From Centroberyx gerrardi (Eukaryota > Chordata > Actinopteri > Beryciformes > Berycidae), in contig NC_136016.1 of NCBI RefSeq assembly GCF_048128805.1, forward strand, positions 8,184,501-8,248,500: DNA of 64,000 bases. Direction: 5' to 3'. Each line of letters starts with the position of its first letter. The first letter of the stretch is position 1. The notes under the pieces were generated by a model. The model saw only the letters and a program-made list of their open reading frames with translations, did no database searches and was not told the DNA's origin. Made by a program: the position numbers and the translations under genes. Below, in pieces: positions 19,991 through 33,060 of the stretch.

Positions 19991-22900
19991 TCATATGCTG
20001 AGGGTGATGCTGTGGATGGTGTTTGCTGGGATTTTGGCATCTGCTTCCTCCCCACTGATCCTGAAGATCACATGGGTGTTGGAGGGGATGGTGGTGGTGG
20101 CACTCAGGGACTTGCCCAGCCAGCCGTGAGCGCCACGCTTGAACATTTTAACCGTTACCTGCAGAGGGGGAAGGGGGGAAGTGGCGGGACAGATCAGGAA
20201 ATACGGATTACGCTCAGATCATTTCTGAATGTAAGAATTCATCCAGTGGCTAAAAGCGAGGTTCTGTTCTTGGCTTTTCAGCACTTTCGCTGGGGTCATG
20301 ACCCTGACTGAGACCTCCTGACCTCTGTCTAGACCTCAGCAGATACTCATGGCCTTCACCTTTGACCTCTGCGTTTACAAGCTGTCGCTTCCTCTCTGGC
20401 CCTGTAGACTGGAGAAGCGGTGCACACTTATTGATTCTGGCCTGTTGGAACTGTCACTGGATCTGTTGATGGGTAAGCTAAACATTTCTGTCAAACCTGA
20501 GGTACCAAATACATTCCAGTTTCAACAAATCTGTAGTTTTATATGTGGCCAAGCATTTACAAATACATTAGTAATTACTACATTTATAACAAAGCAATTC
20601 TCTTTTTTTTTTTATGTGATCCTTATGACAGTTCGTGATACTTGCAAGAGGATCCTCCTTTGCAACCAGTTAGGTCAGCCAGTGAAATGGCTTTGAAAAA
20701 AAAAAAAAAAAAAAAGGCAAAATTTCCCTAATCCTGCTATAATATTATCCAAGTCTTTTGGAACAGTGATCCAAATGGCACCCTGTGACAGAATAAATAT
20801 TAAATTAACCTTGTTCTCGCTGTGAGCTTTTTAATTCCCCTCTAGATCTTGAAGGGACTCATACTTATTTTCTATAGGTTGTAGGGCATAATACACTTTA
20901 ACACTCCATCAAAACTGCCTATTATGTTTGAGACTGACAATGGAAGCCTTAACTAGATTTAGACATGCAGGTAATTGAACCACATCCATTTCAAAAAGAA
21001 TGCCTCACTGCATCTCTTGTTTGGCTGCATTTACAGGGGCTAACAGAATATTACAGTGCCTTTTCACAGTTCCATTTTCTTTCACTTTAGCATTAGGCAA
21101 TTTTTCAATTATTATTTTTTTCATGTTCTTTCATCTCTGGCTCTCCATAATGTCTGGGCCTTTTAGTTAATGGTAGCGACAGTCAGAGCCCAGTATATCG
21201 GCCCTTGTCCATTTTGCGGGTCATTGTGGATGCCCAATAGGCCTTTTATTACGCCGACATCAAAAGGCAGATAAGCATTAGAGGTGGGGAAAATACCCTG
21301 CACTAGATTTGTTCCCTCTTCCCTTTGTCTGCTATTGAACGTGATCATTTTAATAGTGAAGAGGTTGGTGAGCTTCGGGGCTGATGGGAAGTGCAACACC
21401 CCGGAGGGCCTACGAATATGAGCAAGTTTATAACACAACGCGAGCGCACAGCACCCCCCCCCCCCCCCCCCAACACCTGCACACTCTTCCTGCTAACCTA
21501 ATTATCTGCAACAAAGGCTTCCGCAATTTCAGACACATCCTTCTGCCATTTACTTTACTTATTACTGCGCTTTAAAACAGGGAGAAAGACAAAAAAACAA
21601 AACAATTGTGTCTTATATTGCAGCTTTGGCCGAATGCCACGTGGCTTGTATTACAACAGCATCAGACACTTCAGAATGAGTGAGTGTCTATTAATTTGAG
21701 ACTTGCATGGAAAAAATTGCTTCATGACAGCTAGTGGACAGACGGGCTTGTATATCAACACAAAGAAATGGTGAAAGAAATGAGTCTCAGAAATTATAGC
21801 CTAACGCAACAGTTGATAATGAGTAATTAACTAATTTAATGTCACTAAGAACAAATCCCTCCATCTTTGTGGTGGCGCCACACACAGAACAATACTGGAG
21901 ATGCATCACATTCAAACACTGTCAGAACTAGAATAACTACAGATTATAATCCACATATTAAAATTTAGATAGCAAGAAGTATTATCTGCAGGTTGACCAA
22001 CTGAAAACTACTGCCACTGAAACTAGGCCCTGAAACTAGGCTATGAAACAGATGTGTTGCCTTTGACAAATTTCAAATGCTTATGACTACAGTCGATGAT
22101 TGCCATGCAGAAAAGCTAAAGAGGAATATTGTATGATTTCAAATCCGGAGGAGAAAATTCTGCTTTACCGCTACATCAACCTGTTACAGGATACTGGGAG
22201 GGTGTACACCGGTGTCTTTGGCATGAAATCAAAGGGGGGAGTTCTGTGTGGTCCAGTCTACCTGCCTGCCAGGTATGCCTCAAAGAAGACTATAGAGACG
22301 GTGTGTCAGGTAAAGGGAGTTGTCACTGCATGTGAACCCCTCAGCCACTTGAGACAAGTGTCTGAGGGCGTAGCGGAATTGATGAACAGTTGAAGAACAA
22401 AGTGCAGAGGAGCTGCTGGGATAAAAATGGCCTGTCTATAATCTTCTGGAGCATACTCTGATGGTTATGGATGGGAAAAGAAGACATATTACCGTACGTG
22501 TGTAAAATGATAAAGTGGACCTATAGGGAAGTTCTGACAGGTTTATCGCCACAAGTTTATAGACATTTCCTTTTTGGAATAGGACAGAATAGGATAGAGC
22601 TGGAGAACTGTCTGTGGCCTCGCTTGGGATACAAAATAGACATCAGTGCATAATATAATACACATCAAAACATAATAGACATTAAGAGCATTCAGAAACA
22701 GCATATACATGTTGACGTCTTAGCCTACAGGAGGTAGTGTTATTGTGCCATGTGCTGTTGGGCTACATTTCATCTCATTTAGGATGCTGATTGCATTAGG
22801 AATAAAACAATGTCATTTCAAGTGCAATCGGTATCCTACACTTCAGATGAAATGTAGATTTGCATAGCACATGTCACACTTGCACTACCTTCACTAGGCC

Positions 22901-25900
22901 AAGATGAATGGCTCTACATTTACTTAAATAATGTCTCCCTTTCGACTGTGTATTGTCCACAGGTCTCTTGGAATCATTACCACTTCAAGCGCAGACAGGC
23001 CTGAATATGTGTGTGTGTGTGTGTGTGTGTGAGTGTGTGTGTGTGTATATAACACTTCATGGCGAGGACAGGACCCTTGGGGCTAAGGGTGGGTGTCACA
23101 CAAAGGGCTGAGAGCTCACCTATCGGTGTCTACCCCTGATCCCCCTCTCACTTTCGGTGTCAGGGGAGTTGTCTGAATGACATCACTCCTCACATTTCAA
23201 CAAGACAAACTCTTTGCTCTTATTTACCGTCTGCTAATAGTCATAAATCCTGCCTCTGGTTCACTGTTCACCTTTTACCCCCTTTAACTCAAGACGACAG
23301 CTCAATCCCCTTCCAGAGGAGAAACATCTTTTTACAAATAGCTGATAGCAATCTCCACTGCAGAGGGGAAGGGTTTCCTTGTCATCTACCTGCAGGGATG
23401 GATATGGCACAGATTCACAGCCAGTTTGATACAGCTGAATCAGAAGGTAAAACAGATTCATTCATATCCACCGCGCACTTTACATCATGACCCCGTAACC
23501 CTTTCAAATGTTTATATCTAAACATAAATTAGCCGTGTGATTATTTATAGGGCTGCCTAATTAAAAAGGTTGACAGGTCTGACAAGCACGAATAATGCCT
23601 GGAACTGTGTAATTGGGTAGGGACGTGTCACCACCTGTGTGTATTGCCATTCAGTAAGTTCAGATCCTTCCCCCGATAAAGTCAAAGAATCCCAGTGGGG
23701 TATCAGTCAGCGGGGGCTGTTACCTGGAGCCATGGGTGCAGTGTTTCAGGTGAACTCCGAGTGAGCGTAACGCCACACCGGGTTCAGACGGCTGGCTCTT
23801 TGTTCCGCACCGTGTCTCACCAGACACAGATGGGAGGAACACTGAGCAACACACCTCCGGTGCGCCAAACGCCTTTGTCCACAAGCCAAGCGCGATGGAA
23901 TCAGACCAAAAGTGATTCAGTGTGAAAACGTGACCGACTGTCATGTCGGTTGGACATAACAAGGCAATTAGGTAGACATTGTGCGGTTTGGCTCACTGGA
24001 TGAATATATAACAACCTGCTGCAATAGGGAGAGTAAAAGTATCCTGAGTATGGAATCAGTCCAATGACGGCTTGTTTGAAGAATCACCACAATGCATCCT
24101 ACATGAAATACTCATACATAATAATGGAACTGTGCTCCGAGCTTTGGCCGTCCGGCAAGACGCCTAATCTTTTGTTTGGTGACATTATAATCCAGCTCAA
24201 TAACTACATTTGCTCAAAGCCATGACCTAAAAAATGGCTGGTTAAGTTCTGAATAGCTCCGTCTCTGCTTCCAACCTGCCTCAGCTAACAGGAAGCCATT
24301 AGAGTCCCAGCAATAACCATTTACATCCATTCACCCAGCTCTGACTTTATTTCCATCCACATAAGTGCATTTTCTGTGAGAGGTTAAAATATGAATCCCC
24401 CGTTTTTCTCTTCAATGGGTCTGGTTGTCTGGCTGACTTGAGAGGGCACAATCTATGACTGATTTAATTTGCTCTTCACGAACATCTCTAACAGCATTAC
24501 CCCCAGAGCATACACTGACTGCCCCCATCTGACTCCATTAACTCCCAAATCAGGTTTAAAGACCATATTGATGCCGTCCGTTATTAAGGGTGATTATCAA
24601 AACAACAGACAATGGGCCAAAGTGTCTGTTAACTAGTTTATCCATAATTTCACATAACTGTAACAGATGGCAGGGCTGTCAATTACATACAGTATCTGCT
24701 GCATACTGTACACACAATGGCCACACACTGTCTGGATATGCAGCATATTAGCATTTACATGGAAAGAATGATACAAAGACCAACTCTATCTCTTCTGCTC
24801 ACACAGGTGGTCGGAGGAAATGGACAGAACACACACACACACACACACACACACACACAGACACACAGACACACAAAATAAACTATAATACTAAATGCCA
24901 AACAGAAATGGATCAATAAACCATGATAAATGTCTACTTAGATTAGTTCACAGCTGAGAATTTGTGACTCACAAATTGCCAGTTGGTGTTTCAGCGAGTG
25001 TCTCGCTGTTTAAAACAGTCACTGATAGAAATGCTAATCTTACTGTTCAGTCCACTTCACCACCTTTATTCTCCTCAATTAAGGAGAATGGCTTTTGAAA
25101 CTGTAATTAAGTGTCTCTGCGCCACTAGGCCTCTCCATTATTCATGAATCCCTATTGATCATATCTAACAACTTATACAGTAGGGATCACTGTAATATCC
25201 TGAAACCTCAAAACAAATACTTATTATTTTTACAAAGTAGGCTTTAATTTACCAGCACAAAATTAAAATCTTGACCAGTGACCAGAGAAAGGTTTAGGCT
25301 TGGTAACAAATCCACAGTTCTAGCACTTAATGTGGTTTAGTACTGTATAAAACTAGGTGATGTCAGAATCCAGGGACTACAGGCTAACATATTTACTAAA
25401 TTGGAGATATAAATGTGAGATAAATCTATACTCTATGAAGAATATGGTTTTATTTAAATTTGAATGGGAAAACCAGACAAAGAGCGCACTAGACTATAAG
25501 CTGCACACAAAGAGTAAGCCATAGGGTATGCAGGTGCTGGGCCTCTTTCCCATTTGAGTTGCCTGTTTTAATGTTGATTCAATACATGTACCAGATTAAA
25601 TGTGCTTGGATATTGGTATAGATATGTATACCTGTATTGCAGATGCAGTTCAACTGAACAGAGTTTGACAACATGCTATGCTACCTGCGATGGGTCTTGC
25701 ACAACCACAGCTCATACCACATTCAAAGAAATTGTTTTGTAATGAATATTAATGGTTTGGAGCATTTTTAAACATGTATTCAAATTTACTGAAACTCAAT
25801 CTCCCCTTGTGTTAAGCAGGAATGTGTAAAACATGAACTCTACATGTTGATGTTTAACTAAATTAACAAAAGAGTGCTTGAAAAGCCCTCTAAAATGACT

Positions 25901-32906: not shown

Positions 32907-33060
32907 ATTGAGGTCTTGCGCTGCTCGAGAAGCCTCTGAAGAGACAAAAAGGGAATCAGTTTGACATTTCCCGACGTGAATGGCGGTCTGAGCGCTTTTT
33001 CTGAATGCTAAGCAACGTAACTCTATCCAGGAAAGCTGTTTCACAATTTCACCATTTCAA
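32907..33060 (-). other. leader exon of the NERD-domain gene
   Basis: The minus-strand donor CAAT|GTATGT lies at 32906 and the following acceptor TTTTTCCAG precedes 32497. After splicing, the frame of this exon runs open into the first ATG, with 46 codons here plus 4 in the next exon, and begins after an in-frame TGA without any ATG. I therefore treat it as 5' UTR. The transcription start is not known. Confidence 0.5.

Follow-up and report, generated by a model that had tools for sequence, protein, structure and literature searches.

NERD domains in described systems

The nuclease-related domain (NERD) is best known from bacteria, and an Asp lying 13 residues before the Glu or Asp of its E/D-x-K motif is taken to bind metal. 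The available text of PMC12458937 describes NERD as a PD-(D/E)xK subtype, and that of PMC10952713 places it among the domains of phage defence systems. In Staphylococcus aureus SmdA, conserved NERD residues contribute to function, and the authors are aware of no prior experimental NERD study (PMC9040797, available portion). A Leishmania nuclease-related domain protein is listed in the excerpt of PMC9031872, and the animal protein MARF1 is assigned a ‘nuclease-related domain’ in that of PMC13126795. The literature searches made, in which most papers were judged by their listed entries, returned no animal NERD protein; the domain of MARF1 is presumably a different one.

Genomic setting and copy number

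The gene described here lies in a window of 64,000 nucleotides (the whole stretch of DNA analysed; positions 8184501-8248500 of contig C20) from a vertebrate genome, probably that of a fish, of 779 Mb in 278 contigs. Elsewhere in the window are a homeodomain stretch (1103-1789), WD40 stretches (5974-6246 and 7817-8101), a 7TM stretch (51234-51923) and, at 63482-63736, a stretch like carboxypeptidase gp180 (PDB search, E 4e-7; Pfam match under the cut-off). These flanking stretches fit genes which we take to be HMX2, BUB3, GPR26 and CPXM2; neither BUB3 nor GPR26 is among the PDB matches listed, which are other WD40 proteins and other receptors. Public genome annotations may already carry the NERD gene under the label of an uncharacterised protein.

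Zebrafish hmx3b lies on chromosome 12, flanked by bub3 and acadsb (PMC7768253, available portion), and a 648-kb deletion in mouse has Gpr26, Cpxm2 and Chst15 as its coding genes (PMC3572983, available portion); the excerpts of two papers on the human and mouse region, neither of them covering the interval completely, mention no gene that separates BUB3 from GPR26. Mouse 9430038I01Rik, at first suspected to be an orthologue, was rejected, being C10orf143 (108 aa) according to the available text of PMC6886504; in that of PMC4223300 it appears in a table only.

A search of the source genome with the protein recovered its own six exons plus, on a different contig, a single match at E 4.5 that is put down to chance, and no second copy of the NERD gene was found in the 779 Mb when searched exon by exon with only the best candidates scored. 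The NERD domain is spread across exons 1-4, and single exons set against the family in the same genome yielded two scored candidates and no matches.

A six-exon gene on the minus strand

Six minus-strand exons, running from 32485 to 19991 and with splice borders that follow the GT-AG rule, assemble in phase into a stop-free frame of 328 aa, which bears out the exon assembly of the first-pass annotation; the interval end given there, 33060, is no coding border and falls inside a CpG-rich patch, coding beginning at 32485. Coding exon 1 (32367..32485) opens with the ATG at 32485 and supplies residues 1-39, along with two bases of codon 40; coding exon 2 (32132..32232) contains D66 and N68, the latter at the canonical Asp column; and coding exon 3 (31723..31871) contains G76-V-F-C-I-D81-V-K83 and G87. 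The NERD match ends in coding exon 4 (30789..31017), at residue 151 by Pfam or 162 by a profile of bacterial rows, and coding exons 5 (30042..30262) and 6 (19991..20158, with the stop codon) encode parts of a C-terminal region without a Pfam match. The five introns are of phases 2, 1, 0, 1 and 0, with GC of 0.36-0.42. A minus-strand AATAAA (19927..19932) follows downstream, its first base, 19932, lying 59 bases beyond the end of the stop codon. Inspection by eye shows long TG/CA simple repeats in intron 5 (9.9 kb), at 27555-27640, 24830-24870 and 23010-23050, and, in intron 4, a stretch at 30430-30700 that resembles a tRNA-type fish SINE.

A CAG sits 12 bases ahead of the ATG, which makes it likely that a non-coding exon precedes coding exon 1 and that transcription starts further upstream; by-eye inspection established no coding exon upstream of exon 1. 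On the same strand, the patch at 33000..33199 (12 CpG; CpG observed/expected 1.03 vs 0.42 for the whole window) is a probable promoter or first non-coding exon. It is uncommon, not unique: 10 of 1,276 stretches of 200 bases reach its CpG level, two of them at the NERD gene and six close to the HMX exons (301-1351), with one each at 14151 and 17951, between the BUB3-like exons and the NERD gene, where no gene is assigned. The TGACGTCA within the patch is no evidence alone, occurring once in the window against 0.5-0.9 times expected by chance. The CpG-rich patch upstream and the AATAAA downstream are consistent with a gene.

GC3 is 0.38 in exon 1 and 0.62-0.77 in exons 2-6, so that exon 1 is supported by its frame and splice site more than by composition; the full coding sequence has a GC3 of 0.67 vs 0.70-0.85 in five neighbouring exons. 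The low value of exon 1, together with an altered key Asp in the single genome read, is what a decaying gene or pseudogene in the source species could display, with N68 as one sign of decay, but neither stop nor frameshift interrupts the 328 codons, all ten splice borders are intact, GC3 is raised in five of the six exons, and the CpG patch and AATAAA are in place. Decay is accordingly rated very unlikely, and that the six exons form a real gene is held with high confidence.

NERD membership and protein properties

The family assignment of the first-pass annotation held: the spliced protein matches Pfam NERD (PF08378) over residues 37-151 (E 2.2e-10), with 41.4 bits against a curated cut-off of 22.1. 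A profile of 31 bacterial rows, from which the protein was left out, gives it 30.7 bits, while 1,073 of 2,000 shuffled copies scored at all against the same profile, the best reaching 6.5 bits; a narrower profile of 22 bacterial frames gives 18.3 bits. The E/D-x-K motif following G-h-F-h-h is present as GVFCIDVK (residues 76-83). That the protein holds a NERD domain is almost certain.

NCBIfam models for the MAD6 kinase (NF047741; 2.7e-8, 32.8 bits, cut-off 460) and PglW (NF033442; 3.4e-4, 18.4 bits, cut-off 990) match the NERD part only, and PADLOC returns PglW (3.6e-6) and MkoA (1.9e-5). Membership of MAD6 or PglW is not indicated, the scores lying far under the family cut-offs and the kinase part being absent; neither a kinase nor a helicase family was found in the Pfam scan with matches up to E 1. 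A PHROGs profile search with the protein gave no match, and a PDB search one chance-level match (E 0.9). The C-terminal region, searched as residues 159-328 or 218-328, matched no Pfam family, and residues 218-328 had two chance-level PDB matches, so no fold is proposed there. An RSC4 Ig-like match (Pfam, 0.0082) and an effector model match (0.0078), each under its cut-off, were taken as chance.

Peak 19-residue hydropathy is 1.1, so that no membrane helix is suggested, and an intracellular site is presumed; pI is 8.4 for the whole protein, 9.1 for residues 37-151 and 9.2 for residues 163-328. These properties bear on a reading in which the NERD domain is a protein–protein scaffold only and touches no nucleic acid, as the authors of SmdA think possible for that protein, from which several of the best-conserved NERD residues are missing and which acts in cell division. 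SmdA is, however, membrane-anchored, whereas the hydropathy of the vertebrate protein suggests no membrane helix and the NERD part is basic, and a pure scaffold is considered rather improbable.

Active-site columns

Bacterial rows were drawn from 200 genomes of one phylum, of which 85 gave NERD matches; the 30 loci taken first had the highest-scoring matches, a choice favouring canonical sequences, and the narrower profile uses 22 of these loci picked by motif search. This 22-locus profile aligns qiDhvivsryGvFvvEtK with D66-I-N68-V-V-I-L-S-G-Q-G-V-F-C-I-D81-V-K83. In both profiles trained without the protein (22-frame and 31-row), the canonical Asp column is N68 (codon AAC), not D66, and D81-V-K83 is aligned at E-x-K. 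The active site first drawn from D66 and D81-x-K83 is thus half retained: D81-x-K83 does occupy the E/D-x-K site, but D66 lies off the Asp column, which holds N68.

In the first sample (31 rows from 30 loci, best-scoring and of one phylum), the N68 column is D in 31/31, the D81 column E in 30/31 and D in 1/31, the K83 column K in 29/31 and the G87 column G in 28/31; the D66 column is Q in 23, E in 6, R in 1 and N in 1. A wider sample of 80 loci (the first 30, 40 hand-chosen from the match table and 10 from another set of 25), 11 of them without any row at E 0.01, yielded 70 rows and, some loci having been fetched twice, 57 distinct stretches. Of these, 54 carry D, 3 carry E and none carries N at the N68 column; the D81 column is E in 44, D in 4 and other in 9, and the K83 column K in 44. 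The protein was among the training rows of the wider-sample profile, and the two profiles trained without it give the same register. Nine kinase-type NERD rows (from 10 loci, one of which gave none; five of these rows are near-identical in sequence) have D at the Asp column throughout and D-x-K in three (L046, L047, L059).

The protein deviates at the most conserved acidic column and retains a Lys that is absent from 13 of the 57 bacterial stretches. D or E occupies the Asp column in every one of the 57, and the 13 lacking the Lys are likely to be non-cutting, by a loss opposite to that of the vertebrate protein. Two adjoining bacterial NERD frames (L022 / L073; G030:C28:300356-301530) carry V-E-T-K in one and E-V-M in place of E-x-K in the other. 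In many bacterial open frames of ~115-175 aa the match is confined to the first 53-79 positions of NERD; these may be YraN-like (UPF0102) proteins.

Spacing from the Asp to the Glu/Asp is 13 in 29 of the 31 bacterial rows and 14 in the other two; the residue 13 before D81 is Asn68. An Asn at the Asp column makes a working nuclease doubtful; NERD membership stands by profile, and N68 puts only the activity in doubt. An active nuclease would require the metal-binding Asp to have moved from 68 to D66 (or D65) and to form the site together with D81-x-K83. D66 is two residues ahead of N68, D81-x-K83 is intact, and D-x-K replaces E-x-K in the three kinase-type rows as well, but the spacing of 15 from D66 to D81 is matched in none of the 31 rows; a shifted, working site is therefore entertained as possible though doubtful. 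Judged from these columns, the protein probably cuts weakly or not at all.

Origin and search for relatives

NERD is common in bacteria, with matches in the 85 of 200 genomes above, and a recent acquisition from bacteria into this interval could be imagined on that ground. The five introns, of varied phase, favour a long-resident gene and, with a GC3 near that of the genes around it, tell against a recent transfer from bacteria. An insertion into the interval, or a presence limited to some vertebrate lineages, as put forward in the first-pass annotation, is a conjecture, whether by gain here or by loss in mammals. Searches of viral_contigs and, by exact peptide patterns, of genome_contigs (six stretches matched a pattern, none of them related) found no close relative; plasmids gave one match, annotated metK (E 0.08), and phages nine records, the best a methionine adenosyltransferase (E 0.02) and one annotated Nuclease (E 2), all taken as chance. 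Exact peptide patterns served for two of the searches for relatives. No close relative was found among 299 genomes of one phylum, a search without a positive control whose empty result alone shows nothing. Recent transfer is regarded as extremely improbable.

Pattern searches gave two further results: G-x-F-x-I-D/E-V-K-P-W matched genome_contigs at one place, where a stop codon precedes the motif by two residues, and was set aside as chance, and a canonical pattern had no match in viral_contigs. An Agrobacterium phage Atu_ph08 protein (L008:4922-5662) gives a weak NERD match (23.2 bits) and has relatives in six viral contigs (L009-L014) at 81-100% identity.

Proposed function and comparison with known systems

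The preferred reading is of a vertebrate multi-exon gene, single-copy as far as searched, whose soluble 37-kDa product combines an N-terminal NERD domain, of the PD-(D/E)xK superfamily, with a C-terminal region of ~165 aa for which no relatives are recognised. The domain retains D-x-K, one half of its active site, and carries Asn (N68) in the column of the Asp presumed to bind metal; the predicted fold would most likely hold nucleic acid, as charge and superfamily suggest, or a partner protein, with weak or absent cleavage, and the C-terminal region may confer specificity. Joining of the exons, the Pfam NERD match, the MAD6/PglW matches, the N68 column, hydropathy, pI and the lack of a second copy count for such an intracellular binding protein. 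Against it, D65 and D66 are nearby, and D66, on what is presumed to be the same strand face as N68, could replace the Asp; N68, moreover, was read in one genome, from which a fixed and a local change look alike. Taken together, the reading is put forward at evenly balanced confidence. A bolder version, which we think unlikely, would have an old vertebrate NERD gene kept or lost lineage by lineage, its prokaryote-type nuclease domain, linked to a C-terminal domain, now sensing nucleic acid or serving as an adaptor without cutting. With half an active site and a replaced Asp, the protein would offer an animal case in which cutting is separated from binding.

Compared with bacterial NERD (PF08378), the vertebrate protein shares the profile match over residues 37-151, G-V-F-x-I-D/E-x-K and the Gly at 87, but has Asn at the Asp column and Asp for the usual Glu of E-x-K, and its gene has six exons and the ~165-aa C-terminal region without a Pfam match. 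The MAD6, MkoA and PglW defence proteins, with their N-terminal NERD, are the best-scoring named prokaryotic families and resemble it in the D-x-K of three of nine related rows; the MAD6 and PglW models nevertheless score far under their own cut-offs, and the vertebrate protein has no kinase or helicase family. SmdA of Staphylococcus aureus, in the portion of its description available, likewise contains a NERD domain from which several conserved residues are absent, but it combines a membrane helix with a role in cell division, whereas the vertebrate protein has no suggested membrane helix.
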